NCBI RefSeq assembly: GCF_007990755.1
Contig: NZ_BJXA01000003.1
Span: 236,639-300,638, forward strand
Direction of reading: 5' to 3'
Length of the DNA: 64,000 nucleotides
From: Nocardia ninae NBRC 108245
Lineage (GTDB): Bacteria; Actinomycetota; Actinomycetes; Mycobacteriales; Mycobacteriaceae
Shown piece by piece: positions 12,323-52,085 of the stretch. The notes under the pieces were generated by a model that saw only the letters and a list, made by a program, of their open reading frames with translations, was not told where the DNA came from and ran no database searches. How positions within the stretch are numbered: position 1 is the stretch's first letter; every line of letters starts with the position of its first letter. The position numbers and the translations under genes were made by a program.

Positions 12323-12351
12323 GGTGGCAGAGCCCGCCGAATGCAGCAACA

Positions 12352-12660: not shown

Positions 12661-12673
12661 AGGAGATAGAACA

Positions 12674-12775: not shown

Positions 12776-12783
12776 CCGGCGGT

Positions 12784-16555: not shown

Positions 16556-16662
16556 TCGCGTGACCCGCCCGGGTCGCCGTGTGCTCGGGCCTGCGTCGAA
16601 TACTCCCGAATGCCACGACACGTTGAGGAGTTCGCCTGTGACCCCGACTGTGGTCGGATAAG

Positions 16663-17076: not shown

Positions 17077-17174
17077 TCGACAGGCCCGCGCCGACCGCTG
17101 CGTAGGTCGGCCGGTGACCCGCTGTTGACCAGGTCCGGCCACCCTCCCGGGTGCCTACAGAATCGAGATTTCGG

Positions 17175-18347
17175 ATGAACCACGTTCTTCTCGACCAGAT
17201 CTGCGCATCACCAGCTCAACTAGTGACCGACGCGAGTCGGTGCCGCCGACCCGACGGCCTGGTCGGCAATACGCCCGTGCTGTGGATCGGGCCCCCGATC
17301 GCCCCGGCGGGACACGGATTCTGGGCCAAGCTGGAGGGCTGTAATCCCGGCGGTATGAAAGATCGCCCCGCCCTGCACATGGTCCGGCGGGCCAGCGCGC
17401 GCGGCGAGCTGCAACCAGGCGCACGCATCATCGAATCCACCAGCGGCACACTGGGACTGGGTTTGACCCTGGCGGGCACCGTGCACGGCCATCCGGTCAC
17501 CGTCGTCACCGATCCCGGGATGGAACCACTGGTCCACCGCCTGCTGACTGCCTACGGCGCCCAGGTCGAGGTGGTCACCGAGGCACACCCCAGCGGCGGC
17601 TGGCAGCAGGCGCGCCGTGACCGGGTCGCGGCATTGCTCGCCGCCGATCAGCACGCGTGGTGCCCCGACCAATACAGCAACCCCGACAACACCGCGGGTT
17701 ATGAATCGCTTGCGCTGGAACTGGTGGCTCAACTGGGCCGTATCGATGTGCTGGTGTGCTCAGTGGGCACCGGCGGGCACTCCGCGGGGGTGACCCGGGT
17801 GCTGCGACGTTTCTTCCCCGACATGCGATTGGTCGGTGTGGACACCGTCGCCTCCACCATCTTCGGTCAGCCCGCGGGCCCGCGGCTGATGCGAGGGCTC
17901 GGGTCGAGCATCCATCCGCGCAATGTCGACTATGCGGCCTTCGACGAGATCCATTGGGTGGCTCCAGCCGAGGCGGTCTGGGCTGCACGGACACTGGCAG
18001 CGACCCACCATGCCAGCGGCGGCTGGAGCGTCGGTGCGGTGGCGCTGGTGGCTGGTTGGACAGCGGGGGTATGTGCGGCCGACGTCCGGGTCGCCGCCGT
18101 TTTCCCCGACGGACCGCAACGCTACTTCGACACCATCTACAACGACGACTACTGCCGTGAGCACGACCTGCTCGACACCGATCCACCTGTCGAACCCGCT
18201 ACGATCGCACATCCGGGCGAGCGGGTCGTGCGGTCGTGGACGAGGTGCACGAGCGTCATCGACCCTCGGGAATCGAGCACACGAGCCGACAATCCGGCAC
18301 GGCCTGCCATAGGACACGGGAACGCGACGTCGGTGGTAGATCGATGA
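17175..18347 (+). CDS. cysK2: CysK2-type PLP-dependent sulfur amino-acid synthase, copy 1
   Basis: A 390-residue fold-type II PLP enzyme. The catalytic lysine is Lys62 in [14 protein letters not shown], the phosphate-binding or substrate loop [11 protein letters not shown] follows, and [13 protein letters not shown] is the glycine-rich PLP phosphate loop. Mycobacterial CysK2 makes S-sulfocysteine from O-phosphoserine and thiosulfate. It lies between lpqS and an MFS gene and overlaps the latter as ATGA. ATG 17175 was chosen by alignment with copy 2 at 54424; the two proteins are very similar throughout. Confidence 0.88.
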
Positions 18348-21405: not shown

Positions 21406-21502
21406 GTAGTGTCGGCTTGGCCGCTGCGATGGCGCATCGCGGAGTAGCGACACGCGCACACGCCGAGGCCCGCACGGGAGCGTGTGGGAAAGGACAGGGG
21501 TA

Positions 21503-21865
21503 ATGCACGGGCTCGGCACCCTCGAATCACGGGTGATGGATGTGCTGTGGGCAACGACCGAAGCGTTGACTGTTCGCGATATTCTCGAGCGTCTGCCGGA
21601 TTCCTACGCCTACACCACCATCCTGACCGTCGTGACCCATCTCTACGAGAAGCAATGGGTGGTGCGGGTCATGCATCGGCGTGCGTATCTGTATCGCCCA
21701 GCCAGTACACGCGCCGAGGCCACCGCGAGGGCGGTGCGCGAGATCATTGATGCCAGTAACGATCCCGAGGCGGTTCTGCTGCATTTGGCCAAATCCACCA
21801 GCGACGCCGAGTCCGACGCGTTTCGACGTGGTTTGGTGCGGCGGACGAGACGGTCGACGAAATGA
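21503..21865 (+). CDS. BlaI/MecI/CopY family repressor, copy 2
   Basis: A 120-residue winged-helix repressor: LGTLESRVMDVLWATTEALT and AYTTILTVVTHLYEKQWVVR. Like copy 1 it has no cysteine, so direct thiol sensing of copper is excluded. ATG 21503 follows AAGGACAGGGG. The stop overlaps the start of the M56 gene (ATGA). The sequence differs substantially from copy 1, so the pairs are paralogous rather than a recent duplication. Confidence 0.86.
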   Translation: MHGLGTLESRVMDVLWATTEALTVRDILERLPDSYAYTTILTVVTHLYEKQWVVRVMHRRAYLYRPASTRAEATARAVREIIDASNDPEAVLLHLAKSTSDAESDAFRRGLVRRTRRSTK

Positions 21866-22809
21866 TCGTCGCCTTTGGACTGGGATTGTTCGCGGCACTG
21901 TTGTCGGTGGTAGCACCGCGGGTCCTTCGATCCATGATGCTGGCGGCCTCGCCGCGGGTGATGGCGGCGGCCTGGCTGACCTGCATTACGGCCGTCGTCT
22001 TCCTCGCAGGGTGCGCAGTGCTCGTTTCGGTGTGGCCGGGACACGCGTCAGTAGTCGAGACCGTTGAAACGACGATGGTTTGCCTGACCGCTTTCCTCCA
22101 CACAGCACCGGCCTGGTCCATCAATCCGTGCGCGGTGTTGGGAGCCGTTGTTGCGGCTGCGGTAACCGGCCGGCTAGCGGTGACAGCACGTCGATTGTCA
22201 CGGGCAGGGGCCCGGATCCGGGCGTATCACCGAGACGTCATCGCTGTCGTGGCCCGCATCACCGAGGATGTCGTTCCGGTGATGTGGCTCGATCACCCCC
22301 TGCCTTTGGCCTATAGCGTGGATGGGCGACCAGGCATCATCGTGGCTACCGACGGACTGGCTCGGTCGCTGACCGAGCCGCAGCGCCGCGCGGTGCTGGC
22401 GCACGAACACGCCCACTTGCGGGGCCATCATCACCTCATGATCAGGATCTGCGCGGTGATGGCTGCCGCCCTGCCCTGGATCCCGTTGTTCGCCGCCGCC
22501 CCACGGGCTGTAGCGACGTTGGTCGAACTAGACGCCGATGAGATCGCTGCGACCGCTACCAGCAGGCCCGCGATGTGCGGCGCGTTGCGTGCGGTATCGG
22601 AATCGGCGAGCACTGAGCACTCAGGGCTGGCGTCGTTCGGTAACGAGGTCGTCGCACTACGACTACGCCGACTGGAATCGGCCAGCGGCTCGACGCCGCA
22701 ACGATTCTCGGCGGTGGTCGCACTGTGCTTGCCGGCGACGCTGGCGGCTGGCATCGCCGCAGCCAGCATCGCGGGCATGGGCGGCATTGCTTGCCTACTT
22801 TTGCCCTGA
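21862..22809 (+). CDS. M56 family (BlaR1-like) membrane metallopeptidase, copy 2
   Basis: A 315-residue membrane protein with hydrophobic N-terminal helices and the zinc-protease motif HEHAH in VLAHEHAHLRGHHHLM. A conserved acidic segment ELDADEIAA follows. It has no extracellular sensor domain. As the partner of blaI copy 2 it probably releases that repressor on an unknown envelope or metal signal. The His-rich run after the motif (RGHHH) is also seen in copy 1. Confidence 0.84.
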   Translation: MIVAFGLGLFAALLSVVAPRVLRSMMLAASPRVMAAAWLTCITAVVFLAGCAVLVSVWPGHASVVETVETTMVCLTAFLHTAPAWSINPCAVLGAVVAAAVTGRLAVTARRLSRAGARIRAYHRDVIAVVARITEDVVPVMWLDHPLPLAYSVDGRPGIIVATDGLARSLTEPQRRAVLAHEHAHLRGHHHLMIRICAVMAAALPWIPLFAAAPRAVATLVELDADEIAATATSRPAMCGALRAVSESASTEHSGLASFGNEVVALRLRRLESASGSTPQRFSAVVALCLPATLAAGIAAASIAGMGGIACLLLP

Positions 22810-31900: not shown

Positions 31901-32122
31901 TCAGGACACGAGAGTTGCTGTGTAGCCTAGCTTTTCGATGGTATCGATGACGTCGGCGGGGGTTGTGGTGCCGGTGTCGAGTTCGACCGTGGTGTGGCCT
32001 TTTTTCATGGTTGTCTGCGTGTTGCGGACGCCGGGTAGGTCGTCGAGGGTGTCGTCGACGAGTAGTGCGCAGCTGGCGCAGTGCATGCCGTCGATGCGGA
32101 ATTCGTGTGTGCTGGTGGTCAT
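31901..32122 (-). CDS. CopZ-like copper chaperone (HMA domain)
   Basis: A 73-residue HMA protein with the metal site GMHCASCALLVDDTLDDLPG. It has the ferredoxin-like fold pattern ending in IEKLGYTATLV. It lies 17 bases after the SafE-cupredoxin gene on the same strand; in many bacteria an HMA domain is fused to that type of membrane protein, so here the two halves seem to be separate cotranscribed genes. It should carry Cu(I) in the cytosol. Confidence 0.9.
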   Translation of the reverse strand: MTTSTHEFRIDGMHCASCALLVDDTLDDLPGVRNTQTTMKKGHTTVELDTGTTTPADVIDTIEKLGYTATLVS

Positions 32123-32139: not shown

Positions 32140-33222
32140 TCAGGCGGTGGTGATGACGCCGGAGTACATGCCCATGCCGCAGGTGTAGTCGAGCCTGCCC
32201 GGCTCGAGTACTCCGAGATCGACCCGGGTCTCGCCCCTGACGGGCAGGATCTGTTCGATTCCGCGGTCGGGGATGACCAGGTATCGGACGCAGCCGGATG
32301 CGTTGTCCGACTTGATGACCAGCGTGGTCGGCAGACCGGCGGTGGCTGCGATGGCGTGGGGGCTGTAGGAGCCGGTGCGGGCGGTGATCGCCACCGTTTG
32401 AGTGCCGTCCACGATGGTGGCGGCCACGGCGTCGGGTGCCGGACCCGCCGGACCGAGCGAGGCGGCGATGCGGCTGGCCGCCAGTGGGGAGCCGGTGAGT
32501 TCGAGTCCGCCGTTGAGGGTGTAGAGGCCCATGGCGAGTACGACCAGACCGGTGGCCAGGTCGAGCCGCCCTCGCCATGCCGTCGCTGCGAGGCGGGCGG
32601 CATATCCGAGAAGCGCGAACAGCGGTCCGGTGCCGAGCACGAATACCGCCATGATCGCCGCACCCTGCAGCGGTGAGCCGGAGGCGAGCGCGAGCGCGGC
32701 GACCGACAGGGTCACCCCGCACGGGATGAGGATGGTGGCCACGCCGAGCAACGCGGGCGCGAGAGCCGCCCGGGAGCGGGCCTGGGTGCGGACCAGTCGA
32801 GTCCAGCAGGCGGGTGGTTCGATCACGATACGGCGGAAACCGGGCACGCCGAGCTGGGCGAGCCCGAAGGTCACGATCAGCAGTCCGGCACCGATCTGCA
32901 GCCAGGTCCGCATCCCGAGGGACAGCTGGACCGCACTACCGAGCGCTCCCAGCAGCGCGCCGAACAGGGTGTGGGACACGAGTTTTCCGGCGAGGAATCC
33001 GCTGACGGGGGTGAGATCGTCGGCGAGTCGGGTCGACCACCGAGCGGCGGCCGAGTCGGCGCTGCCGCTCGCGACGGTTGCCCGGGAAGCGACGGCGCCG
33101 ACGGTCTGGGTGGCTGTGGTGCGCTGTCGGGTGATCAAACCGGTGAGGAGTCCGCCCTGGACAGCGGCACACGAGATACCACCGGCGAACAGGCCGGTGG
33201 TGAGGATGGCAAGGAGATTCAT
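32140..33222 (-). CDS. SafE/TauE-like membrane protein with C-terminal cupredoxin domain
   Basis: A 360-residue protein. About six or seven membrane helices begin with LLAILTTGLFAGGISCAAVQ and include GVATILIPCGVTLSVAALAL, with Cys residues in helices as in DsbD/SafE relatives. The last 90 residues are an exported cupredoxin-like domain (ITARTGSYSPHAIAATAG, ending DYTCGMGMYSGVI). This architecture is typical of copper loci; a role in moving copper or electrons across the membrane is likely but unproven. ATG 33222 was chosen; the frame is open further upstream without features. Confidence 0.82.
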   Translation of the reverse strand: MNLLAILTTGLFAGGISCAAVQGGLLTGLITRQRTTATQTVGAVASRATVASGSADSAAARWSTRLADDLTPVSGFLAGKLVSHTLFGALLGALGSAVQLSLGMRTWLQIGAGLLIVTFGLAQLGVPGFRRIVIEPPACWTRLVRTQARSRAALAPALLGVATILIPCGVTLSVAALALASGSPLQGAAIMAVFVLGTGPLFALLGYAARLAATAWRGRLDLATGLVVLAMGLYTLNGGLELTGSPLAASRIAASLGPAGPAPDAVAATIVDGTQTVAITARTGSYSPHAIAATAGLPTTLVIKSDNASGCVRYLVIPDRGIEQILPVRGETRVDLGVLEPGRLDYTCGMGMYSGVITTA

Positions 33223-33319: not shown

Positions 33320-33745
33320 CTATGTCCGGAGCACGCAGAGCTGCGCGAGGGTGGGCGCTCGCGGTAACGCCGCGCGAGTCGCGCGGGTGGTTCCCGCCCG
33401 GATCGCACAGGCCACGGCGGCGAAGGTTCGCCGCAGACGCAGCGTCGACGCCGCCAACCAGGTCAAGATGGCCACCAGGCAGGCGGCCAGAATTCCGTCA
33501 AGAACCATCGGTGCGCCGACCGCGGTCTGCACCGCGTGGAGCGCGCCGGTCACCAGGTGATCCATCGGGTCCTCAGCGCCGACGACGGTCTGCGCGGAGT
33601 GCGTTATCGACACCGACACCGACATCGGCATGGCCGGCATGCCGTCCTTGCACTGCAGACCGTGCATCAGAGCGATTCCCGCGAGCGCCGCCAACACCAC
33701 GAGCAATCGCGCGGATACGCCGCGAGAGGGCGAGGTGGCGGTCAC
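33320..33745 (-). CDS. DUF6153-like small membrane protein
   Basis: A 141-residue protein with an N-terminal helix (LLVVLAALAGIALMHGLQC), a Met/His-containing middle (DGMPAMPMSVSVSI) and a second helix, ending LAQLCVLRT. The end pattern L-C-V-L-R matches the protein at 52086, which ends LSVLRI. These look like members of one family of short copper-locus proteins. It heads the SafE-cupredoxin-chaperone operon and diverges from the cyclodipeptide synthase gene. A TTG start at 33766 is possible. Confidence 0.6.
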   Translation of the reverse strand: MTATSPSRGVSARLLVVLAALAGIALMHGLQCKDGMPAMPMSVSVSITHSAQTVVGAEDPMDHLVTGALHAVQTAVGAPMVLDGILAACLVAILTWLAASTLRLRRTFAAVACAIRAGTTRATRAALPRAPTLAQLCVLRT

Positions 33746-33809
33746 CCCGCCGATAGTACTAACCAACTACGTGGCGTGTAGTAGGAGGTGAGATCTCGGA
33801 TGTCTGGGC

Positions 33810-33841
33810 TTGACCTTCCCCTTCAGTGGAAGGTTCATGCT
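33810..33841 (+). promoter_or_regulatory. CueR-type promoter, copy 2 (upstream of cyclodipeptide synthase)
   Basis: TTGACC, the 19-base spacer TTCCCCTTCAGTGGAAGGT, and TCATGCT. The dyad ACCTTCC...GGAAGGT (33814-33834) is the classical CueR operator. It lies 75 bases before the synthase ATG and is in the right orientation. The sequence TTCATG after the spacer is shared with the promoters at 12291 and 35034. Confidence 0.85.
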
Positions 33842-33915
33842 GTGGGGCGACATCACGCCGCCGAACCTGTCCGGTCCCGGTGGTGCCGAATTGGTGATCC
33901 ACCGAAAGGCCCGCC

Positions 33916-34602
33916 ATGCCCTTCCACGTACAGCCACTGTCGATCCATTGCCACGCGCCGGTGGCGCGTGGCGCGCATGTCTGTTTCGGGATCAGCCCGT
34001 TCAACAGCTACTTCACCCCGCAGCGGATCATCGACCTGGCTCGCTGGGGCTTCGCCGAGTTCGACGCGGCGCACTTCTTCGTCCCGGACCTGCCCGCGGC
34101 CTACACCCTGGAAGCGCTGGGATATCCGCCGGCGCGGGCCGCGCACAAGGCGCGCCGCCAGGGACAGTATGTCCGCAACAAGATCGCGCGTGCGCTCACC
34201 GACGTGGGCGTGCACGAGCCGCAGCGACTGATCCTCGGCTGGGCGGAACTCTATTCGAATCCGCGATACCGGCACCTGCGCGATCAGGCGCAGAGGCTGT
34301 TCGACCATGACCCGGACTTTCGGGCCGAATGCGTGGAAGCGTCCCGGTGGGTGCTGGAAAACCGGCTACCGGCGGGCGGCGCGGCGACCGATGATCAACT
34401 GCGCTCCGCCGTGCGTTACCTGCTCGCCGAACTCCCCTTGTTCACCGACACCGGCGCCATCGTCGGCGCCGAGTCGTCGGTGTTCTGCTACCACCAGAGC
34501 ATCGGATTCCTGCAGCGGCTCTACCACGGCGAACTCGCCTGGAAGCCCGCCGAAGGACAAGGCTTCGGTGTGCTCACCGAAGTGGCCTACGCGCAGGGTT
34601 GA
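33916..34602 (+). CDS. tRNA-dependent cyclodipeptide synthase (NYH subfamily)
   Basis: A 228-residue CDPS, which joins two aminoacyl residues taken from charged tRNAs into a diketopiperazine. The nucleophile is Ser27 in HVCFGISPFNSYF, with Asn30 at the NYH position; Tyr168 and Glu172 lie in RYLLAELPLF, and Tyr192-His193 in SSVFCYHQSIGF. The pattern RAAHKARRQGQYVRNKIARA is the basic tRNA-binding helix. It is preceded by a CueR-type promoter and overlaps the end of cueR by 16 bases, tail to tail. No P450, oxidase or methyltransferase for tailoring is adjacent. The amino acids used cannot be read reliably. Confidence 0.93.
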   Translation: MPFHVQPLSIHCHAPVARGAHVCFGISPFNSYFTPQRIIDLARWGFAEFDAAHFFVPDLPAAYTLEALGYPPARAAHKARRQGQYVRNKIARALTDVGVHEPQRLILGWAELYSNPRYRHLRDQAQRLFDHDPDFRAECVEASRWVLENRLPAGGAATDDQLRSAVRYLLAELPLFTDTGAIVGAESSVFCYHQSIGFLQRLYHGELAWKPAEGQGFGVLTEVAYAQG

Positions 34603-35006
34603 GCGTCGGATTCCAGGATCCAGCACACCGCGGCCCGGTCGTGTTCGGTGGCGGTCGGGCCGCGCCGAGCGGTGGCCAGCAGGGATTCCAGGTGGGTTTC
34701 GAGGGTGATGAGTTCGGCGATCTGGGCGCGCACCTGATCCAGTCGGGATCTGAGGACCTGTTCGACATGGCCGCAGGGTGTATCGCCGTGGTCGACGATG
34801 GTCAGCACCTCGCGGGCTTCGGCGAGCGTGAGCCCGGCGGCCTGGGCGCGGCGGATGAACTGCAGCCGGGCGATGTGGTCGTCGCTGTAATCCCGGTAGC
34901 CGCCCGGGGTCCGGGCGGGTTCGGGCATGAGCCCGGACTGCTCGTAGAAGCGGATGGTCTTGGCCGTAAGACCGCTGGCCGTGGCCAGTTCACCGATTCT
35001 CATCAC
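34587..35006 (-). CDS. cueR: CueR-type MerR family copper regulator
   Basis: A 139-residue MerR protein: MRIGELATASGLTAKTIRFY and GGYRDYSDDHIARLQFIRRA. The long dimer helix is followed by a Cys-containing region (HGDTPCGHVEQVL) and a C-terminal AVCWILESDAQPC. The CueR-style Cys pair near the C terminus is present in altered spacing. Its own start faces the copZ-copA promoter at 35034, and its tail faces the cyclodipeptide synthase; both of those promoters carry the CueR dyad. A relic copy of its 5' end is at 12196. Confidence 0.87.
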   Translation of the reverse strand: MMRIGELATASGLTAKTIRFYEQSGLMPEPARTPGGYRDYSDDHIARLQFIRRAQAAGLTLAEAREVLTIVDHGDTPCGHVEQVLRSRLDQVRAQIAELITLETHLESLLATARRGPTATEHDRAAVCWILESDAQPCA

Positions 35007-35033: not shown

Positions 35034-35065
35034 TTGACATTCCATCGTACTGGAAGGTTCATGAT
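35034..35065 (+). promoter_or_regulatory. CueR-type promoter, copy 3 (copZ-copA operon)
   Basis: TTGACA, the 19-base spacer TTCCATCGTACTGGAAGGT, and TCATGAT. It starts 28 bases from the cueR start and 85 bases before copZ. Confidence 0.85.
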
Positions 35066-35118: not shown

Positions 35119-35325
35119 ATGAGTGAGGCCACCTACACGGTGCGCGGTATGACCTGCGGGCACTGCGCGAATTCCGTAACACGGGAACTGCTGACCGTGT
35201 CCGGCGTGCGCGGTGTCGATGTCGACGTGGACTCCGGCCGGGTCGTGGTGACCAGCGAGCGACCCCTCGGACAGGACGCGGTGCGGGCCGCGGTGACCGA
35301 GGCCGGTTTCGAGTTGGTCGGCTGA
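35119..35325 (+). CDS. copZ: CopZ copper chaperone, copy 1
   Basis: A 68-residue HMA protein with metal site VRGMTCGHCANSVTREL. ATG 35119 follows GAAGGAG. It is the first gene of the CueR-controlled operon and should hand Cu(I) to CopA, encoded 51 bases downstream. Confidence 0.92.
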   Translation: MSEATYTVRGMTCGHCANSVTRELLTVSGVRGVDVDVDSGRVVVTSERPLGQDAVRAAVTEAGFELVG

Positions 35326-35376: not shown

Positions 35377-37860
35377 ATGAGTGAGGTCACCGACCGGATG
35401 TCTGCTGGTGTGCGGCAGGTGGAGCTGTCGATCGCAGGCATGACGTGTGCGTCGTGCCCGCCGCGGATAGAACGCAGGCTGGCCAAACTCGGCGGGGTCA
35501 CCGCGACGGTGAACTTCGCGACCGGCAAGGCCAAGGTCAGCTACCCCGACACGATGCCGGAGTCGGATTTGATCGGCGCGGTCGCCGAGGCCGGCTACAC
35601 GGCGACCATTCCCCGCTCCGAAACCGCCGCAGCGCGCAGCGATGCCGATCACGGCGACGACTACGACGAGCACACGAAGTTGCTGCGGCAGCGGATGCTC
35701 GTCTGTCTCGCGCTGGCGGTGCCGGTGACGGTGCTGGCGATGGTGCCGCCGCTGCAGTTCACCAACTGGCAGTGGTTGTCGCTGACCTTGGCCGCACCGG
35801 TGGTGGTGTGGGGCGCGTGGCCGTTCCATCGCGCGGCATGGTCGAACCTGAAACACGCCACCGCCACCATGGACACCCTGATCTCGGTAGGAGTACTCGC
35901 CGCGTTCGGCTGGTCGCTTTTCGCACTGTTCCTCGGCGAGGCCGGAATTCCAGGCCTGCGGCACAGCTTCTCGCTGACCGTGGCACGCGGAATGGCCGGA
36001 CAGAACATCTATCTGGAGGTGGCTACCGTCCTGACCACGGCGATCCTGGCGGGCCGGTTCTTCGAGGCACGGGCCCGTCGTCGTGCGGGCGCGGCCTTGC
36101 GGGCGCTGCTGGAGCTGGGCGCGAAAGACGTCGCTGTCCTGCGTGATGGCCGCGAGGAGCGGATCCCGATCGACCAGCTGGGCGTCGGTGACCGATTCGT
36201 GGTACGACCGGGAGAGAAGATCGCCACCGACGGTGTTGTCTCCGACGGCAATTCAGCGGTCGATGCCAGCATGCTGACCGGCGAGTCGATGCCGGTGGAG
36301 GTCGGCCCCGGTGATCCGGTGGTCGGCGCCACCGTCAACGCGGGCGGGCGCCTCGTGGTGCACGCGACCCGAATCGGCTCCGACACCCAGCTGGCACAGA
36401 TGGCCACGCTGGTCGAGGAGGCGCAGAACGGCAAAGCGCAGGTCCAGCGCCTCGCCGACCGGGTGTCTGCGGTGTTCGTGCCGATCGTCATCGCTCTCGC
36501 GATCGCCACGTTGGGGATCTGGCTCGCGGTCGGTGCCGGGGCGGCGTTCGCGTTCAGCACCGCGGTCGCCGTATTGATCATCGCGTGCCCGTGTGGTCTC
36601 GGATTGGCCACGCCCACAGCGCTTTTGGTCGGCACCGGACGGGGTGCGCAGCTCGGTATCCTGATCAAGGGCCCGGAGGTGCTGGAATCGACCCGCCGCA
36701 TCGACACCGTGGTCCTGGACAAGACCGGCACCGTCACCACCGGCAAGATGACCCTGCTCGAGGTCCATGCGGGCGCCGATGCCGACGAGACCGAAATCCT
36801 GCGGCTGGCCGGCGCACTGGAAGATGCGTCCGAACATCCGATCGCCAAGGCCATCGCCAGCGGCGCAGCCGAACGAGTCGCAACACTGCCCGCCGTAGCG
36901 GACTTCGCGAATCTCGAGGGCCTCGGGGTGCAGGGCACCGTCGAGGGCCGCGCCGTACTGGTGGGCCGCACGACCCTGCTCGAGCAACGCGGCATCGACC
37001 TTCCGGTCGGCCTGCGGACGGTCAAAGAGCGGGCCGAGTCTCAGGGACGTACCGCGGTGGTCGTCGCGTGGGAGGGCACTGCGCAGGCGGTGCTGGTCGT
37101 CGCCGACACGGTCAAACCGACTTCGGCGCAAGCGGTTCGCGGGCTGCGGGAGCTCGGGTTGCGACCGGTCCTGCTCACCGGTGACAACAGCACCGTCGCG
37201 CGGGCGATCGCCGCCGAGGTCGGCATTACCGAGGTGATCGCCGAGGTACTGCCCACCGACAAGGTCGACATCGTCAAGCAACTGCAAGACCAGGGCCGGG
37301 TCGTGGCGATGGTCGGCGACGGCATCAACGACGCCGCCGCGCTCGCCCAAGCCGACCTCGGGCTGGCCATGGGCACCGGCACCGACGTCGCCATCGAAGC
37401 CTCGGACCTGACCCTGGTTCGTGGTGACTTGATCGCCGCTGTCGACGCGATCCGGTTGGCACGCAGCACTTTACGGACCATCAAGGGCAATCTGTTCTGG
37501 GCCTTCGCCTACAACGTCGCCGCGCTCCCACTGGCCGCGATCGGGCTGCTGAACCCGCTCATCGCCGGCTCGGCGATGGCTTTCTCCAGCGTGTTCGTGG
37601 TGACGAACAGCTTGCGGCTGCGGCGATTCCGCGCCTCACCCACCTCCGAGCCGCCTCCGAGCGTCGATGCTCGTGCCAATGGTCGCCCTGGTGCGGCTCG
37701 GCACGGTAACAGTCGCCCCCTCGGGGACGGCGAGCGAACAGAACTCGAGCGCCTGCGCGCCGCGAACGTGGTCCTGGCCGAGGAACGCGACGTACTCGCC
37801 CGTGCGATCGCGCTGGCACTCGGCAACACCGAAGAGCGGCAACAAGACCGGACTCGGTAG
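35377..37860 (+). CDS. copA: CopA Cu(I)-exporting P1B-1 ATPase with C-terminal extension, copy 1
   Basis: An 827-residue copper pump. One HMA domain (GMTCASC, Cys24 and Cys27) is followed by eight helices, the CPC motif at 404-406 ([15 protein letters not shown]), the phosphorylated Asp448 in [19 protein letters not shown] and the hinge [14 protein letters not shown]. The pump fold ends near [10 protein letters not shown]. About 75 extra residues follow, including [20 protein letters not shown], which look like the leucine-zipper end of an IS3-type OrfA; the second CopA (61170) lacks them. The relic at 12352 carries the same tail. Confidence 0.93.
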
Positions 37861-37906: not shown

Positions 37907-38008
37907 ATGGCACCGAACATGATGGCGAACCTGGCGTCCTGGTGGAACTGCCAGCTGATGATGCTGGGCCTGGCCGAGTGCGGCATGTGTCCCAAGATGC
38001 CCCAGTAG
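37907..38008 (+). CDS. 33-residue Met/Cys peptide, copy 2 (main copper operon)
   Basis: ATG 37907 follows AAAGGAGACGAAC, 46 bases after copA. The peptide has core SWWNCQLMMLGLAECGMC (positions 11-28), three cysteines, and methionines throughout, ending KMPQ. Copy 1 at 12674 is identical at 28 of 33 positions. I know no named family. The Trp pair and hydrophobic middle suggest membrane association, and the CGMC end resembles a soft-metal ligand set. Placement between copA and small membrane proteins supports a copper role. Confidence 0.75.
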   Translation: MAPNMMANLASWWNCQLMMLGLAECGMCPKMPQ

Positions 38009-41543: not shown

Positions 41544-41560
41544 TACGAAGGTGGATAGTA
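41544..41560. promoter_or_regulatory. BlaI-type palindrome (upstream of complex I-like cluster)
   Basis: TACGA, seven bases, TAGTA; one mismatch to the consensus at 12041. It lies 39 bases before the nuoA start. Confidence 0.45.
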
Positions 41561-41598
41561 GTGTCGCCCGCACGAACGGACAGGAGGGGTGGTCGGCG

Positions 41599-41940
41599 GT
41601 GACGAACTTGCTGGTGATCGTGGCCATCGTAGCCGCGTCGATAGTCGTGATTTACAGCGCGGCGCGGGCGGTGGGCGCTGCCCCGGCGAGCGTGGACCAG
41701 GCTCCGTTTCTCTCAGGTGCGGCGGCTGTGGAGCACGCTGTCTCGCGTTATCACGTCCGGTGGTACACGATCACGATGATCTTTCTTGCGTTCGACATGG
41801 AGATGGCCTTCATGTACCCGTGGGCGATTGTCGTGGCCGATATCGGAATCAGTGCGGTTGCCGAGATGTTCGGCTTCCTCGCCGTGCTGATGATCGCCGT
41901 CCTCTACGCCTGGCGGGAAGGAGCGCTGCGATGGGTCTGA
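41599..41940 (+). CDS. nuoA: NuoA-like complex I membrane subunit
   Basis: A 113-residue subunit with three helices: LLVIVAIVAASIVVIYSAAR, FLAFDMEMAFMYPWAIVVAD and FGFLAVLMIAVLYAWREGAL. The acidic FDMEMAFMYPWA motif is the NuoA hallmark. GTG 41599 has AGGAGGGG ten bases upstream. It overlaps the next gene by ten bases and heads an eight-gene cluster. Confidence 0.88.
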   Translation: MTNLLVIVAIVAASIVVIYSAARAVGAAPASVDQAPFLSGAAAVEHAVSRYHVRWYTITMIFLAFDMEMAFMYPWAIVVADIGISAVAEMFGFLAVLMIAVLYAWREGALRWV

Positions 41941-43523
41941 GCATGTGGCTGCGGCAGCGAGCGGCGATTGCGCCATTGGTGGTGACGGTGCCCGGGGGTA
42001 CGGCGGCACGGTTGGCAGTAGAGCAGGCCATCCGAGAGGTGGGCTGGTGCGGGGCGGAAAGTCCGGCGGCAGCGGGGCTTCTGGTCGTCGCGGGGCCGAC
42101 GGATGACGCGTTCGATCAGTACGTCACACGAGTGTGGGATGCGATGCCGGAGCCGAAGGTCCGCGTCCACATCACCGAATTCGATGATGTCGCCGAGAAG
42201 CTCGGCATGGCGGCTACGCTACTGCGATCCGGGCCCGATTATGAACCGATCACCGCCGCGCGCGCGGACGAATCCCGCAGCGGTGCCGAAGATCCGGAGA
42301 AGCACGGACACAACACCGCGACGGGAGTGTCACCGCGACCCATCGAGCACACCTCCGGAGCGCACGCTGAGCATTCACAGCATCCGCCCAGCACCGGAGA
42401 TACTGCTGAGCCTCGCCCCGGCGGTAACGGCGAGCACGAGCACGGTGCCCATAGGGGTCCATTCGACGCGGTCGCACACGAACCTGCCTCGCACGGAGAG
42501 CATGGTGCGGCAGACGCTGACGGACCTGCAACTGTGGAAGAACATGGAGGCGGACAAACTGATCCGCCGACCCATGTTCATTCCGAGGAATCAACCCCGC
42601 ACGGACATGATGCGAATGGAACAGCCGGATCCGAACACGATCACCTGAACCACGCGGAGCATCAGGGCCACGATCAGCGTGACGGCGGCGGTCACGGAGA
42701 TGGTCACGACCAGCACATGGGTGGCGGGCACGGACATCACCACGGTGGGCACGGGCACGACATGGGGATGCCATTGCCTGGTGGTCTGGCGATGGCGGAT
42801 CGAGGACCGGACCGTGACGGGCTACAGCTCGATGTGCTGAATGTTGCCCTGGGTCCGGCGATCAGGTGGTGGCCAGCCGGGCTGGTAATGACCACACGGT
42901 GGCAAGGTGATGTGGTCTCCGACGCGGCGGTGTCGGTCCTGCCGCTGGCGGCAGGGATAGAGCCGTTCTGGCTGCGACCGTGGTTACGGGCCGGACGTGG
43001 CGAGCGAGTGAACGCCGGTGAGGCGGGACGTTGGCAGGCGGCGCGGCGGTTGGATTCGGCCGCAACATTGTTGGCCATCGCGGGTTGGGACGATGCGGCG
43101 ACAGCGGCACATCGGTTGCGCGACCGATTGCTGAGCGGAGAGCCATCCGAACGGGACGCCGGACAATTGAGCAGCTGGATTCGCCGGGTCGTTGGCTCGC
43201 GGGTGCTCCGGTGGTCGCTACGAGAAGTCGGGCGTATCGGCCGCGGTCCGAACGTGCCGGCCACCGTGATCGGCGATGCCCACGACCGGTTCCTGACGTC
43301 GGTTGCCGCGCTCGCCGATGCCGACCATCGGGACGAATGCCTTTCGAAACCCGAAGGATTCATCAGCGACGAGGTCGAGCGCAATCGGTGGATCGTCGAC
43401 GCGTTGCCCGGCCTGCTGGTAGGCGCGGAACTCGAGGAAGCCCGGTTGATCGTGGCAAGTCTGGACCCCGACGTGGAACTGGTCTGCTGGGCAACAGCGG
43501 CGACGAAGGCAGCGCATGGTTGA
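41931..43523 (+). CDS. His-rich NuoB/NuoD-like fusion without cluster ligands
   Basis: A 530-residue protein in the place of NuoB-CD. Residues 20-90 resemble NuoB (EQAIREVGWCGAESPAAAGL, VVAGPTDDAFDQ, AMPEPKVRV) but the cysteines that hold cluster N2 are missing. Residues about 123-280 are dominated by His, Asp and Gly (HGDGHDQHMGGGHGHHHGGH). The rest recalls a degenerate NuoD start (LDVLNVALGPAIRWWPAGLV, QGDVVSDAAVSVLP). Redox and quinone chemistry of complex I cannot be done by such a protein; metal binding by the His stretch is plausible. ATG 41931 follows GGAAGGAG. The next gene overlaps its end. Confidence 0.65.
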   Translation: MGLSMWLRQRAAIAPLVVTVPGGTAARLAVEQAIREVGWCGAESPAAAGLLVVAGPTDDAFDQYVTRVWDAMPEPKVRVHITEFDDVAEKLGMAATLLRSGPDYEPITAARADESRSGAEDPEKHGHNTATGVSPRPIEHTSGAHAEHSQHPPSTGDTAEPRPGGNGEHEHGAHRGPFDAVAHEPASHGEHGAADADGPATVEEHGGGQTDPPTHVHSEESTPHGHDANGTAGSEHDHLNHAEHQGHDQRDGGGHGDGHDQHMGGGHGHHHGGHGHDMGMPLPGGLAMADRGPDRDGLQLDVLNVALGPAIRWWPAGLVMTTRWQGDVVSDAAVSVLPLAAGIEPFWLRPWLRAGRGERVNAGEAGRWQAARRLDSAATLLAIAGWDDAATAAHRLRDRLLSGEPSERDAGQLSSWIRRVVGSRVLRWSLREVGRIGRGPNVPATVIGDAHDRFLTSVAALADADHRDECLSKPEGFISDEVERNRWIVDALPGLLVGAELEEARLIVASLDPDVELVCWATAATKAAHG

Positions 43524-44439
43524 GGTGGCACCGTGGTGGTCGGCGGTGGTACTGCCCGTCGGTGTGCTGGCCTTCGCGTTGGCTGCCGAGGTAATCGACG
43601 CTGTTCTGCGCGGGCGGGCCTCCGGTGTTCCGGTCGCGACGGCTGCGGCGGCGCCGCTGCGCTCGGTGGCGTTGCTGGTGATCCAGCAGCGGCGTCGGGT
43701 GGTGGCCGCCGACGTGTTGCTTTGGCGCTCTGCGGGATTGGCTTTGCTACTGGCTGGAGTATTGGCGGCCGCGTTCGTGCCGATCGGTGACCTGGCGGTG
43801 TTGGACAGCGGGGTATCGCTGGTCTGGTTCAACACGGTCGAGGTAGTGGCCTGGGCGGCGGTGTGGTTAGCGGGCTGGGGCGCGAACTCGGCGTTTTCAC
43901 TGGTCGGCGGCTACCGGTTCGTCGCGCAGGGGTTGGCCTACGAGCTGCCGCATATGTTCGCGCTGATCTGTGCCGCAGTGGGTGCCGGTTCGTTGCGGGT
44001 CGGCGATATCGTTGCCGCCCAACAGGATCGCTGGTTCGTGGTGATCATGCCGGTGGCTTTCGTGGTGTATCTGCTCTCGGTGCCGGCGATGTCGTTCTCC
44101 ACGCCGTTCAGTAGTGCCGTTGGTGCGGATATCGCGGGCGGTGTCTTCGCCGAGGTATCGGGGGTGGACCGGCTCGTGCTGCTGGTGGGTCGGCGGGTGC
44201 TCTTCGTGGCGGCGGCCGCAATGGCAGTGCCACTGTTCCTCGGCGGCGGGGCGGGCCCGTGGCTGCCCGGGTGGCTGTGGTTGCTGGCGAAGGAGGCCGG
44301 GGTGCTCGCGGTGCTGATCTGGTTGGGGCGGCGGTGGCCGACGATTCGGATGTCGCGCTACATGGAGGTCGCCTGGGTGGTGCTGTTGCCGCTGGTACTA
44401 GTACAGGCGTTGGTGGTTTCGATCGTGATGGTTCGCTGA
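43516..44439 (+). CDS. nuoH: NuoH-like complex I membrane subunit
   Basis: A 307-residue multi-helix subunit corresponding to NuoH, which in complex I joins the quinone site to the proton pumps. Family-like segments include WAAVWLAGWGANSAFSLVGG, YRFVAQGLAYELPHMFALIC and the EVSGVDRLVLLVG loop. ATG 43516 overlaps the previous gene. Sequence is divergent from respiratory NuoH but the helix pattern is kept. Confidence 0.85.
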   Translation: MVEVAPWWSAVVLPVGVLAFALAAEVIDAVLRGRASGVPVATAAAAPLRSVALLVIQQRRRVVAADVLLWRSAGLALLLAGVLAAAFVPIGDLAVLDSGVSLVWFNTVEVVAWAAVWLAGWGANSAFSLVGGYRFVAQGLAYELPHMFALICAAVGAGSLRVGDIVAAQQDRWFVVIMPVAFVVYLLSVPAMSFSTPFSSAVGADIAGGVFAEVSGVDRLVLLVGRRVLFVAAAAMAVPLFLGGGAGPWLPGWLWLLAKEAGVLAVLIWLGRRWPTIRMSRYMEVAWVVLLPLVLVQALVVSIVMVR

Positions 44440-44440
44440 G

Positions 44441-45019
44441 ATGGGAGACGCCGCAGTGCTGTCACAGGTGATCTTCTGGGTGTGCGCGGTAGGCGCGGTC
44501 ACCTCCGGGATCGCGGTGTTCCGGGTGGATTCGATGGCTCGCGCGACTTTCGCATTGCTCGCGTCATTCGTATTCGCGGCGGGCACCGTGTTCCTGGTCG
44601 ACCTGAACTACCTCGGCGTCTTGGTCGTGCTGATGATGATCATGGAGATGGTCATCATGGTCGTGTTCATGATCATGTACATGATGAACCCGGCCGGTCT
44701 GATGCCGATGACGATGGTGCACAACCAGAAAGCGTCGGTTGGCATTTCGGCTGCGGTGTTCGTCGCACTGACGAGCGTCGCTTTGCTGGTCGACTGGCCC
44801 GACGGGAAACAGCCACGACCGGCCGATCCCACCGCATCGCTCGGGGAGGCCCTGATGGGCTCGAAGATGCTGGTGATGATCATCGTCGGGTTGGTGCTGT
44901 TCGCCACCATCGTGGCAACAGTGGTGCTGGCGACCCACCGGGGCCGCTACGACCGCTACGGCGACCGCCTCGACCGACGCACCCCCAACGATCCCATCGA
45001 AGGAGGCGTGGGCCGATGA
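44441..45019 (+). CDS. nuoJ: NuoJ-like complex I membrane subunit
   Basis: A 192-residue subunit with five helices (SQVIFWVCAVGAVTSGIAVF, FLVDLNYLGVLVVLMMIMEM). The Met-rich stretch MVIMVVFMIMYMMNPAGLMP is notable, with runs of methionine in the helix. The stop overlaps the nuoK start as ATGA. Confidence 0.85.
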   Translation: MGDAAVLSQVIFWVCAVGAVTSGIAVFRVDSMARATFALLASFVFAAGTVFLVDLNYLGVLVVLMMIMEMVIMVVFMIMYMMNPAGLMPMTMVHNQKASVGISAAVFVALTSVALLVDWPDGKQPRPADPTASLGEALMGSKMLVMIIVGLVLFATIVATVVLATHRGRYDRYGDRLDRRTPNDPIEGGVGR

Positions 45020-45318
45020 ACCTGCCCGAATTCCTGGTGCTGGCGGCGGCGCTGCTCAGCGTAGGTCTCTACGGTGTGCTGTCGCAGCAGTCGATCGTGA
45101 TGATCATGATGGGGCTGGAGCTGATGATCAACGCGGTCATCGTGGCCGCGGTCGCGTTCTGGTACTTCGCGTTTCCCTCCGCCGACGCCCAGGTGCTCGT
45201 GCTGGTCGCGGTCACCGCGATGGCAGTGGAGATGGCGACCGGTTTCGCGGTCGCCACAGCGATCTTCCGCGCTCGGGACGTCGACATAGTCGACATGGCC
45301 GCGGATTTGAAGGACTGA
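45016..45318 (+). CDS. nuoK: NuoK-like complex I membrane subunit
   Basis: A 100-residue subunit with three helices. The conserved glutamate of NuoK lies in MIMMGLELMINAVIVAAVAF and a second acidic residue in AMAVEMATGFAVATAIF. It overlaps nuoJ by four bases. Confidence 0.87.
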   Translation: MNLPEFLVLAAALLSVGLYGVLSQQSIVMIMMGLELMINAVIVAAVAFWYFAFPSADAQVLVLVAVTAMAVEMATGFAVATAIFRARDVDIVDMAADLKD

Positions 45319-45323
45319 AGATC

Positions 45324-47180
45324 GTGCTGTGGACGATGATCGCGCTACCGGCGTTGGTCGGCGCGGCGCTATTGGTATGTGGCCGCCGCGCTGACCGCGT
45401 CGCACCGGTGCTGGCCGTCGCGACAGCTGGCGTTACGACGGGGCTGGCGGCGTGGAACGCCGTTGACCGGCCCGAAGTTTCGGCGCCGTTCCTGTCCGGC
45501 ATCCCGGTGGAGCTGCGAGTGGATGGGTTGTCGGCGGTGATGATCGTGACCGTGGCCGCGATCGTGACCGCGGTGCTGGTCTTCGCGGCGGGCGACCTCG
45601 GAGCCCGGGAACCACGCGCCCGCTTCCACGGACTGGTGCTGATGTTCGCGTCCGCGATGCTGGCCACGGTGACGGCGCAGACCTTGGTGACGCTGCTGAT
45701 GGCGTGGGAGCTGATGGGCGCGGCCTCCTATGCGCTCATCGGGTTCCATTGGCGCGAAGAGCAACGCGCCGCTTCAGGGCTGGTCGCGTTCCTGACCACG
45801 CGCACCGGTGATCTCGGCATGTATCTCGCAGCGGGCGCGGCGCTGGCCGGTGGCGCGGGCGCGCTTGAACTCGGTGCCCTGGCGGGGCTGGACAGTGGCT
45901 GGCGCGACGCCGCAGCCGCTGGCATCGTGCTCGCAGCGCTAGGCAAATCCGCACAGCTGCCGTTCAGTTTCTGGCTGTCGCGGGCAATGGCGGGCCCGAG
46001 TCCTGTATCGGCCCTGCTGCATTCGGCGACCATGGTGGCCGCGGGGGCTTACCTGCTGCTACGCCTGGAACCGCTGCTCAACGCGACCAGTTGGGCAAGC
46101 CAGGCCACAGCGTGGGTGGGGGCGCTCACCGCGATCGCGCTGGGTGCGGTGGCACTGTGCCAGAGCGACCTCAAGCAACTTCTGGCCGCCTCCACCTGCG
46201 CCCAGGTAGGTCTGATGGTTCTCGCTGCAGGGGTGGGCGGGGTCGCCGCGGGTACCGAACAGCTGATCGCCCACGCGGTCACCAAGAGCCTGCTGTTCCT
46301 GGGTGCGGGGGCATGGCTGTCCGCACTGGGTACCAAGAATCTCATCGGTCTGCGCGGCGCCGCACGCGCGTACCCCGTTGTGGGCGTGACGTTTACGATC
46401 GGTGCGCTCAGTCTCGCCGGAGTTCCGCCCTTCGCGTTGTGGCCGGCCAAGGACGCGGTCCTCACCGCGGCCCGCGGCTCCTCGTCAGCTCTGTACCTGG
46501 CCGGATTCGCGGCAGCGATACTGACCGCGCTGTACGCCGGACGAGCGCTCACCCTGGTGTGGTCATCGCCCGTCGCCGACACCGAAAAACGTTGGGACTC
46601 TGAGGAAACAGGCACGCGCAGAGTCCAGACCAGTCAACTTTTGCCGCTGGCGGTGCTCGCCGCCATGACACTCGCTGCGGCCGTCGCGGTGCTTCCTGCC
46701 GTGTACGGCAGCTTCGCGGGTCTTGTTGGTTCGGCGCCGGTGGAGGCGGCCACGTGGTGGGAGCTAGCAGTATCCGGCGCCGTGGCGGTGGTGGCGATCG
46801 GCGCGGCCGGAGTCGTGGTACGCAGACGTGGCGACGTGTCAGCCCCCGCGCTCTTGACCGAGTGGCTCGGTATGGAACGGGCCGCGCACCTGGTGGTGGT
46901 CGTGCCGACGTTGGCGGTGGGCCGCGCACTGGCGCGCTTCGACGACCGCGTGCTCAACGACGGCGTTTACGTCGTCGTGAACGCGGGTGTGGCACTGGCA
47001 CGTGCGGTCGATCACCGGGTGGAACGCGCGCTCGATCGCACAGTGCACGCCGTCGCCACCGCCTCGCGGAGCCTCGGTCGATGGGCGCGCCGCCCGGAAA
47101 CCGGCTTGGTGCATCAGTACTACGCCCAAGCAGTGGTCGGTCTCGTAGTGCTTGCTGTCGTGCTGGTGACCTTGCGATGA
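45324..47180 (+). CDS. nuoL: NuoL-like antiporter subunit
   Basis: A 618-residue antiporter-like subunit with about 15 helices. Core motifs include LLMAWELMGAASYALIGFHW, the lysine/histidine helix LSRAMAGPSPVSALLHSATM and VTKSLLFLGAGAW. A long C-terminal region follows, ending in the terminal helix YYAQAVVGLVVLAVVLVTLR. GTG 45324 lies five bases after nuoK. The proton-channel residues appear preserved. Confidence 0.88.
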   Translation: MLWTMIALPALVGAALLVCGRRADRVAPVLAVATAGVTTGLAAWNAVDRPEVSAPFLSGIPVELRVDGLSAVMIVTVAAIVTAVLVFAAGDLGAREPRARFHGLVLMFASAMLATVTAQTLVTLLMAWELMGAASYALIGFHWREEQRAASGLVAFLTTRTGDLGMYLAAGAALAGGAGALELGALAGLDSGWRDAAAAGIVLAALGKSAQLPFSFWLSRAMAGPSPVSALLHSATMVAAGAYLLLRLEPLLNATSWASQATAWVGALTAIALGAVALCQSDLKQLLAASTCAQVGLMVLAAGVGGVAAGTEQLIAHAVTKSLLFLGAGAWLSALGTKNLIGLRGAARAYPVVGVTFTIGALSLAGVPPFALWPAKDAVLTAARGSSSALYLAGFAAAILTALYAGRALTLVWSSPVADTEKRWDSEETGTRRVQTSQLLPLAVLAAMTLAAAVAVLPAVYGSFAGLVGSAPVEAATWWELAVSGAVAVVAIGAAGVVVRRRGDVSAPALLTEWLGMERAAHLVVVVPTLAVGRALARFDDRVLNDGVYVVVNAGVALARAVDHRVERALDRTVHAVATASRSLGRWARRPETGLVHQYYAQAVVGLVVLAVVLVTLR

Positions 47181-47228
47181 ATCTGGTTGGGCCGCGACGA
47201 ATCCGCGACAACGAAAGAAGAGGTGAGC

Positions 47229-48722
47229 GTGCTCAGCGTTCTGGTATTTCTGCCGCTGATCGCGGCTGTAGTCCTGGTCGCGGCACCGAGTCTGAGTGAC
47301 CGCGGGGTGCGATGGACATGGGTCGCGGTCAGCGCCGTGGAGGTTGCGCTGGTCGTAGCGCTGTGGGTCGGATACCGACGCACACCGCCGGGCGACGGCG
47401 AATTCGCGTTCGAGGTCCACCGCAGCTGGATTCCCAGCCTGCGTTCGGGATACCACCTCGGCGTCGACGGATTCAGCCTGCCGCTGCTGGCGCTGACCGT
47501 CGTATTGTTTCTGGCGTGCGCGGTGTACTCGCTGCGTGAGACCCGACGCGTTCGGCTGTTCGCGGCGTTGTTCCTGTTTCTCGAGACCGCATGCCTGGGC
47601 GTATTCGTCTCCCTAGACCTGGTGCTGTTCTTCGTATTCTTCGACCTGTCGATCGTCGGCATGTACTTCGTGATCAACGGATGGGGCCACGGGCAAGCCC
47701 GGCGGGCAGCACTTCAGTTCTTTCTCTACACCTTCGTAGGATCGCTGGCGTTGCTGGTCGGGTTCATCGTGCTGTACCTGGCTGCGGACCCGCACACCTT
47801 CGACATGGTGGAGCTGACGCAGGCGAATCCGTTGGCGGGCAATACCGCTCGCGGGGCCATCGCACTGGTGGCGATCGTCATCGGGCTCGCGATCAAGACA
47901 CCGACCGTGCCGTTCCACACCTGGCTCCCACCCGCGCACACCGAGGCACCCGCCGCCGGGTCGGCGATCCTCGCCGGAGTGCTGCTGAAGTTGGGCACCT
48001 ACGGTTTCGTGCGGATCGCGATGCCGATGCTGCCTGAATCGTGGCGGCGTTACGCACTGGTGATCGTGATCATCGGGGTGGTGAGCGTGCTGTACGGCGC
48101 ACTTGTCGCTTTGGCGCAGAACAACTTCAAACGAATGATCGCCTACACCTCCGTCAACCACATGGGCTACATTCTGCTCGCCGTCGGCGCCGCTGGACTC
48201 GTTGCGCGCAATACCGACCAAGCCCGTACTTTGGCAATCACCGGCGCGGTGACTCAGATGGTCAGCCACGGACTCATCACCGGCGCGCTGTTCCTGCTGG
48301 CCGGTGTGCTCTACGAACGCCGCCGCACCTACGACATCGACGCCTTCGGTGGACTAGCTGGACAGGCACCGATCTTCGCTGCCACCACTGCGGCTGCCGC
48401 GTTCGCCTCACTCGGGCTACCCGGCTTTTCTGGCTTCATCGCTGAATTCCAGACCTTCACCGGTTCGTTCGCGCCCGCGCCGGTGTACACCGCACTAGCG
48501 GTCCCGGGCATCTTGATCACCGCAGCGCTACTGCTGCGCGCCTACCAACGAATGTTCCTCGGTGAGCCACGCGTGGGGGCGTTCACGGATTTGACTGTAC
48601 CCGAGGCGGTTTCGATCCTGCCGCTGATGGCAGCAGCAGTCGTGATCGGCCTTTTCCCCCGCTTCTTGCTCGATGCGATCGAACCCGCGTCGCGCGTGCT
48701 CGGCGAGTTGGTGGTGCGCTGA
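47229..48722 (+). CDS. nuoM: NuoM-like antiporter subunit
   Basis: A 497-residue antiporter-like subunit. Conserved regions include FVFFDLSIVGMYFVINGWGH, the half-channel segment IKTPTVPFHTWLPPAHTEAP, and MIAYTSVNHMGYILLAVGAA. GTG 47229 has AGAAGAGG at good spacing; GTG 47223 and ATG 47187 are alternatives. The gene ends next to nuoN. Confidence 0.88.
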   Translation: MLSVLVFLPLIAAVVLVAAPSLSDRGVRWTWVAVSAVEVALVVALWVGYRRTPPGDGEFAFEVHRSWIPSLRSGYHLGVDGFSLPLLALTVVLFLACAVYSLRETRRVRLFAALFLFLETACLGVFVSLDLVLFFVFFDLSIVGMYFVINGWGHGQARRAALQFFLYTFVGSLALLVGFIVLYLAADPHTFDMVELTQANPLAGNTARGAIALVAIVIGLAIKTPTVPFHTWLPPAHTEAPAAGSAILAGVLLKLGTYGFVRIAMPMLPESWRRYALVIVIIGVVSVLYGALVALAQNNFKRMIAYTSVNHMGYILLAVGAAGLVARNTDQARTLAITGAVTQMVSHGLITGALFLLAGVLYERRRTYDIDAFGGLAGQAPIFAATTAAAAFASLGLPGFSGFIAEFQTFTGSFAPAPVYTALAVPGILITAALLLRAYQRMFLGEPRVGAFTDLTVPEAVSILPLMAAAVVIGLFPRFLLDAIEPASRVLGELVVR

Positions 48723-48741
48723 TATGGGGGAGATGGGACAG

Positions 48742-51887: not shown

Positions 51888-52085
51888 CGTTTCTCCCTGA
51901 TTGGTCATGATCGGGGTCGCCACCGCGTCGACGGCGAATCAGCGGACATCCCGTGCCTCGCGCGGCAAAGATTGCGTGCTGCGTTGCACCGGGATGGATG
52001 AAGTAGCCCGGAGGCGATGGGATGCTCGGGCTACATGCGAAAGCGCGCCCCTGGTGGTATGCGACTGCGGGCGCGGTTCGACCTG

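Follow-up and report, generated by a model that had tools for sequence, protein, structure and literature searches.

The question raised by this locus of Nocardia ninae NBRC 108245 is what a cyclodipeptide synthase (CDPS) gene is doing behind a promoter of the copper-sensor type. The stretch of DNA analysed here, hereafter the window, is 64,000 nucleotides long. CDPSs are abundant, but to our knowledge few of their products have been given a biological role. In the present case the mode of regulation, the build of the operon and the neighbouring genes converge on one physiological cue, copper, so that the role becomes directly testable. The reading that we favour, with a probability of roughly two in three, is membership of the CDPS in a CueR-type copper regulon, with a cyclic dipeptide that works beside copper efflux.

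The CDPS gene (33916..34602, forward strand) encodes a protein of 228 residues. Profile search with PF16715 gave an E-value of 3.7e-74 over residues 3-221 of 228, and TIGR04539 scored 280 bits, above its cut-off of 45. In a gapless alignment to AlbC covering residues 17-220, S27, N30, Y168, E172, Y192 and H193 were found to match all of the AlbC reference residues (S37, N40, Y178, E182, Y202 and H203, respectively). Both marks of the family, i.e., a full-length profile match and the catalytic Ser and NYH residues, are therefore present, and the complete enzyme with Ser27, Asn30, Tyr168, Glu172 and Tyr192-His193 proposed in an earlier sequence-only reading was borne out. As judged by these features, 33916-34602 is an intact CDPS of the NYH type with a predicted dipeptide-forming activity. 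AlbC, Rv2275 and the Nocardia concava cPP enzyme, also NYH-type CDPSs, share with it family, catalytic residues and length, but in the papers searched they are not tied to a metal-efflux promoter, unlike the window CDPS. No tailoring enzyme is adjacent, as had also been observed before, and the same is true of four annotated plasmid loci (L132-L135), in which no P450, oxidase, prenyl- or methyltransferase of the kind usual in CDPS clusters adjoins the CDPS. Methyltransferase genes lie farther off: in L132-L134 one for a SAM methyltransferase is about 5 kb from the CDPS, and L135 has an isoprenylcysteine-carboxylmethyltransferase-like gene some 3 kb upstream of it. The same genome carries a second CDPS (L026, G000:C16:5023-5688), whose pocket motifs VGVTMLFN/LRFSQLP are of the published cyclo-Tyr-Tyr type.

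The CueR-type promoter/operator of the CDPS lies at 33810..33841 on the forward strand. It comprises TTGACC (33810-33815), a spacer of 19 bases and TCATGCT (33835-33841), with the dyad ACCTTCC...GGAAGGT, exactly as the sequence-only reading had it, and its distance to the ATG is 74 bases. The arrangement of a dyad inside a 19-base-spaced promoter ahead of the gene, which marks membership of a CueR regulon, is thus found at the CDPS, and the form of the box is that of E. coli copA. A second promoter/operator of the same form, TTGACATTCCATCGTACTGGAAGGTTCATGAT, precedes copZ-copA at 35034..35065 (forward strand). Upstream of the CDPS box, a weak BlaI/CopY-like dyad, ACTACGTGGCGTGTAGT, was recognized by pattern only at 33766..33782, with no strand assigned. 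When the pattern TTGACMTTSCN7TGGAAGGT was run with up to two mismatches over the whole 9.7-Mb genome, three matches were obtained on the forward strand and none on the reverse, all three exact, against 0 and 1 for the pattern read backwards in the same genome. These three boxes precede the CDPS, copZ-copA and a copA remnant at window position 12291. In the latter region (12291-12790) an exact box heads a decayed copA with a 37.5% CopA match, in which, by eye, the HMA start is fused to the last membrane segment. A slightly wider pattern, run on both strands of 1.96 Mb of fetched loci, gave 17 matches, compared to a single one on both strands of 39.2 Mb of first-order Markov sequence. In eleven cases a CDPS match follows on the same strand at a distance of 71-106 bp. 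The remaining six are the two other boxes of the window, one box between the divergent CDPS and copA of L092, one dyad of L018 read on both strands (two matches) and one box at 16829 in L135. Chance occurrence of the box is ruled out by both the genome counts and the Markov control.

The genes around the CDPS are mostly those of metal handling. The HMA copper chaperone gene copZ (35119..35325, forward strand) matches PF00403 and falls below the NCBIfam CopZ cut-offs. The copA gene (35377..37860, forward strand) scores 544 bits with TIGR01511 (cut-off 397) and carries CPC, FAYN and MAFSS, which agree with the CPC, YN and MxxSS signatures of Cu(I) P1B-1 ATPases. Together with the form of the box, these CopA signatures and this score point to copper as the signal. 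On the reverse strand, and divergent from the CDPS, lie a small protein with no family assigned (33320..33766), which neighbours the DsbD-cupredoxin gene in several relatives too, a DsbD-like membrane protein with a C-terminal cupredoxin domain (32140..33222; PF13386, PF13473) and an HMA metal-binding protein recognized by sequence match (31901..32122). A number of further features were observed in the window. A 33-residue peptide rich in Cys, Met and Trp, MAPNMMANLASWWNCQLMMLGLAECGMCPKMPQ, and a variant of it are encoded at 37907-38008 and 12674-12775, after copA and the copA remnant, respectively; it is possibly a copper-binding microprotein, and a strict pattern for it had no match in any fetched locus of another genome. 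BlaI/M56 pairs occur at 10543-11927 (also found by tblastn) and 21482-22809 (by eye). Pairs of this kind were likewise seen next to many metal-linked CDPSs, and what they sense may be metals or thiols instead of beta-lactams. A glyoxalase-rhodanese fusion (5268-6005) is reminiscent of the ArsI/CadI metal-resistance enzymes, and ORFs resembling NADH dehydrogenase subunits (41551-50175, by eye) lie inside the metal-resistance region, adjoining a multicopper oxidase (50325-51923).

CDPS matches were found in 14/150 genomes for the own genus, 31/397 for the order, 26/394 for the class, 92/390 for the family of G291 and 139/392 for the genus of G590, samples that overlap and take in distant CDPSs; plasmid records gave 23/72,556 and one scan of genome contigs three loci. 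From 124 loci, L036 was removed as having no CDPS match in tblastn, leaving 123 with the window included, while the relatives G1005, G973 (49% identity) and G1286 (44%) were left out of the comparison. Loci were labelled by panel genes within 6 kb and by a box within 350 bp of the CDPS, and the neighbours derive partly from crude gene calling that served for neighbour finding only. The labels obtained were CueR box (11 loci), copA/copC/CsoR without CueR box (4), BlaI/M56 (8), ZntA (2), no panel neighbour (1, L114), NCS1 (60) and distant CDPS, meaning an identity of 41% or less (37). The 11 CueR-box loci count as ten distinct ones, L020 and L233 being one genome, and L109, one of the four labelled copA/copC/CsoR, owed this label to a weak 33% CopA match about 7 kb off and is therefore taken with the BlaI loci. 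A box 71-106 bp upstream of the CDPS is thus present in 11/123 loci, and in none of the 60 NCS1-linked or the 37 distant CDPSs. Copper linkage as a general CDPS trait is ruled out, as the 37 distant CDPSs showed neither a CueR box nor a copA match; a weak single MerR or ArsR match lies within 6 kb in four of them (L115, L129, L131; L030) and a CTACTA repeat in one locus (L242).

Box and CDPS occur together in the own genus, in two genera of another family and in Streptomyces, in four gene orders. The window has the small protein, DsbD-cupredoxin and HMA genes on the reverse strand, followed by box-CDPS (forward), the sensor gene (reverse) and box-copZ-copA (forward). In G291 (L092), copA (reverse) is divergent from the CDPS (forward) with a box on each, and the HMA and DsbD-cupredoxin genes come next. 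In Kibdelosporangium (L020) all genes run in one direction, in the order small protein, DsbD-cupredoxin, HMA, sensor, box and CDPS. Finally, in three Streptomyces plasmids (L132-L134: pFRL6, S. mirabilis pI and S. liliifuscus) the sensor gene (reverse) is followed by box-CDPS-copA (forward), with a gap of 20 bp between CDPS and copA, the CDPS being the first gene of the copA operon. The latter order is repeated in G1475, G1471, G1283 and G1455. Matches to the HMA and DsbD-cupredoxin proteins occur no farther than 6 kb from the CDPS in eight of the ten distinct CueR-box loci (not in L184 and L192). Linkage of the CDPS to copper genes is therefore conserved across genomes, which excludes the opposite outcome that the sequence-only reading had allowed for and strengthens its view of the promoter as a copper promoter. 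On the evidence of these sequences, there is good support for a CueR-like system controlling the CDPS.

An unlikely alternative is hitchhiking, i.e., that a CDPS of specialised metabolism landed in mobile metal-resistance islands and has no copper role. Metal-resistance genes are indeed dense both in the window and in the Streptomyces linear plasmids, and several close relatives adjoin ZntA/ArsR or BlaI/M56 genes, not copA. As to the metal contexts other than the CueR box, the CDPS lies within 3.5 kb of zntA-arsR in L021 and L022, and L135, a plasmid of Streptomyces NBC_00637, has the order CDPS-BlaI-M56-CopC/CopD, in which the CopC and CopD domains were confirmed. The neighbours in L093 are a CsoR-like gene, a probable multicopper-oxidase gene (by eye) and BlaI/M56 genes, in L094 the CDPS is followed downstream by copA-copZ, and possible BlaI-type CTACTA repeats precede the CDPS in L093, L094, L108 and L109. 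Hitchhiking would also fit the Kibdelosporangium CDPS, which is truncated, its match ending at about residue 101. The copA of G1455 (L196) matches in three pieces with no single copA frame, so that some copies have decayed, which tells against the favoured reading. However, the box was kept on the CDPS although its surroundings were rearranged, a pattern that hitchhiking does not predict, and the place of the CDPS at the head of the Streptomyces copA operon also speaks against it.

Selection on the enzyme argues in the same direction. The ratio dN/dS (NG86) was 0.16-0.34 in nine pairs and 0.16-0.30 in the seven CueR-box pairs; the CDPS is under purifying selection. A tree of 94 CDPS rows was built, which does not resolve the deepest branching and has some flagged long branches. 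The context labels cluster strongly on it, requiring 7 changes (minimum possible 6, shuffled mean 33.7, as low a value in 0/200 shuffles). A weakly supported branch (72/94) has the CueR-box CDPSs together on one of its sides; they may have a single origin, and thus the ten loci should not be counted as ten independent gains. The NCS1-linked CDPSs, which need two changes on the tree, belong to the same subfamily as the window enzyme (47-61% identity), but all 60 lack, unlike the window CDPS, a CueR box or a panel metal gene within 6 kb, a finding that also counts against mere hitchhiking. An NCS1 transporter and thioredoxin-like and rhodanese-like matches were found within 6 kb of the CDPS in all 60 (L096 and 59 others). 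Thiol chemistry fits this sister group given the constant presence of the thioredoxin-like and rhodanese-like matches, and the gene content suggests that its product may be a sulfur-containing cyclic dipeptide.

The box was also sought away from any CDPS. In the own genus it is present in 8/138 sampled genomes, only the present genome carrying one on a CDPS, and no CDPS was found within 1.5 kb of the box in the other seven. The eight places in those seven genomes comprise copZ-copA (3), copA fragments with DsbD-cupredoxin and HMA genes (3) and small protein with DsbD-cupredoxin (2), and a sensor gene adjoins the box at all eight. The genus of G590 has the box in 3/131 genomes at four places: L244 and L245, where it heads copA directly, L246, where it heads CDPS-copA, and L247, in the genome of L246, where no panel gene is in front of the box and the box itself marks the end of a sensor gene that is divergent from a copA. 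Taking the 131 and 138 genomes of the two genera together, a CueR-like match is near all 15 box places (three of them in this genome), the one near the remnant-locus L251 box being a 42% part match only, and a copA, copZ, DsbD-cupredoxin or CDPS match is likewise in the locus at 15/15. Given that most boxes in both genera are without a CDPS, the CDPS is an accessory rather than a core member of the metal regulon. The CueR-type box of L250, a locus of the same genus whose surroundings contain no CDPS, stands before the small-protein/DsbD-cupredoxin genes, and these may therefore be part of the regulon too.

The regulator itself deserves caution. The sensor gene (34587..35006, reverse strand) sits between the CDPS and the copZ box and overlaps the end of the CDPS by 16 bases, tail to tail. 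The sequence-only reading had placed the CDPS in a flank shared with cueR and copZ-copA; the second part stands, as copZ-copA is adjacent with a box of its own, but the name cueR does not, since the product scored 93.2 bits with the CueR equivalog TIGR02044, the cut-off of which is 147.4. The sensor lies under each of the 18 curated NCBIfam cut-offs listed, and the ZntR (98 to 104 bits) and CadR (104 bits) models score higher than the CueR model (93 bits), with MerR at 97 bits. Its best relatives of solved structure are the MerR-family regulator 5gpe and CadR, CueR appearing after one more. The metal-loop cysteines of E. coli CueR are C112 and C120, a pair of a type that the window sensor does not have. 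In a 12-row alignment of the sensors nearest the CueR-box loci and L094, in which L020 and L233 are identical, two cysteines are shared, in 'PC' near position 77 and in 'vC' near 127, and no further conserved Cys was found in the 12 sequences. On profile scores, structural relatives and this alignment, the protein beside the CDPS is a CueR-like metal sensor of the MerR family, unusual in its two cysteines, and not a certified CueR.

It follows that the sensor might answer another thiophilic metal (Zn, Cd, Hg, Ag or Au) and that the CDPS might serve that response, instead of or besides copper, an explanation to which we give little credence. Apart from the better ZntR/CadR scores, a Cys of the sensor falls at the CadR Cys position, and the two close relatives near zntA-arsR point the same way. 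Moreover, the L135 box at 16829 (region 16336-17876) heads a gene that is annotated as alkylmercury lyase and has a MerR-type sensor gene on its other side; the box form is thus rare and tied to MerR-type sensors, yet it is no proof of copper, and its form may serve other thiophilic metals too. On the other hand, the box has the E. coli copA form, the locus holds copper genes or a CDPS at every one of the 15 box places, and the ATPases behind the boxes bear Cu(I) signatures (none could be read in the broken L196 copy). The sensors, furthermore, retain just the two conserved cysteines.

Regarding the product, the P1 and P2 pocket positions and the published motifs were taken from Gondry 2018 (PMC5816076). 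The P1 motif CGFPWLFF occurs in 11 rows only, namely the nine complete CueR-box CDPSs (window included), L093 and L094, and among the motifs published there it is nearest to the Pro motifs LGLPWLFF and CGHPWLLY, and then to LGFPWLVF (Leu). In P2, six of these nine CueR-box enzymes read AWVGQPD, and the motif of the window, AWVNQIG, fits none of those published motifs well (best 3/7). The Trp at P1 position 5 of the window CDPS is absent in 60/60 NCS1-linked CDPSs. The other groups were scored by representatives (4/60 NCS1-linked, 1/2 Znt-linked, L114, L135 and 3/8 BlaI-linked); those without Trp at this position come closest, within the same set, to the Cys motif VGYPSIFF, except that for L108 Pro motifs score equally. 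Prediction of Pro from pocket motifs is called uncertain in that paper (PMC5816076). Residue identities in P1 of the window CDPS thus suggest that Pro or Cys, not His, is probably bound there.

The mechanism that we propose would begin with a rise of cytosolic copper, upon which the MerR-family sensor, sitting on the dyad, would untwist the 19-base-spaced promoter. The sensor would thereby switch on copZ-copA, which encode the chaperone and the Cu(I) efflux ATPase, and also the CDPS, which has a copy of the promoter to itself. Using two charged tRNAs, the CDPS would form a small cyclic dipeptide, P1 probably accepting Pro or Cys. This compound would act alongside the efflux of copper and would either bind or buffer Cu(I) or serve in thiol/redox protection. 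We infer copper as the inducer and activation by the window sensor from the features described. As the CDPS is behind a copper-sensor promoter both here and in relatives with other gene orders, the cyclic dipeptide is probably part of the copper-stress response. A copper-handling role of the product is plausible, while its identity and what it would do with copper are guesses. That copper is only a cue, and the cyclic dipeptide a signal or antibiotic acting on neighbours or development, seems improbable. In its favour, bioactivity is widespread among cyclic dipeptides, no chelating product is known, and the compound expected from a Pro-type P1 pocket would presumably be a poor copper ligand. 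Against it, no dedicated small-molecule transporter adjoins the CDPS in the window or L132-L134, unlike in the NCS1-linked group, and the nearest annotated neighbours there handle metals.

The arrangement can be compared with known systems. The enterobacterial CueR regulon (cueR, copA) shares with the window the operator form, the 19-base spacing and a Cu(I)-ATPase and chaperone as targets; the window differs in adding a tRNA-using biosynthetic enzyme and in a sensor that lies below the CueR cut-off and has another cysteine pair. Chalkophores and fluopsin C are copper-linked small molecules of microbes, several of them serving copper starvation, and in being tied to copper they resemble the product proposed here. 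They are, however, made by other enzymes, whereas the window has a single enzyme acting on charged tRNAs, which would answer copper excess.

No paper linking a CDPS to copper control was found in the open literature searched, in agreement with the sequence-only reading, which was not aware of a described copper-induced CDPS. The words 'copper' and 'metal' do not occur in the main text of Gondry 2018 (PMC5816076) or Skinnider 2018 (PMC5767969), the latter mentioning a possible CDPS siderophore cluster. CDPS genes have been reported in Diplorickettsiaceae genomes from mine water, with no regulatory link to copper stated in the part available (PMC9734747). One further study bears on the copper role, and its main text does not contain the word 'cyclodipeptide' (PMC9195940). 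In that study, curing S. mirabilis of plasmid pI, which carries the CDPS gene SMIR_RS42380 and copA SMIR_RS42375 in one operon, barely altered copper tolerance, a result that counts against a copper role, and transfer of pI to S. lividans raised tolerance from 9 to 10 mM in TSB with no gain in GYM (PMC9195940).

A broader view, which we put forward tentatively and would not back at even odds, is that actinobacterial copper-efflux operons have a dedicated small-molecule arm, in which a tRNA-using enzyme, recruited beside CueR-like, CsoR, BlaI/M56 and ArsR regulators, makes a cyclic dipeptide directed at Cu(I) or at the thiol damage that it causes. If the copper reading of the CDPS is true, metal resistance would, in addition to the pumps and chaperones already known, make use of a metabolite derived from charged tRNAs and carried by large plasmids. 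Should the small-molecule arm prove real as well, this would be a plasmid-borne metabolite of metal resistance diverted directly from protein synthesis.
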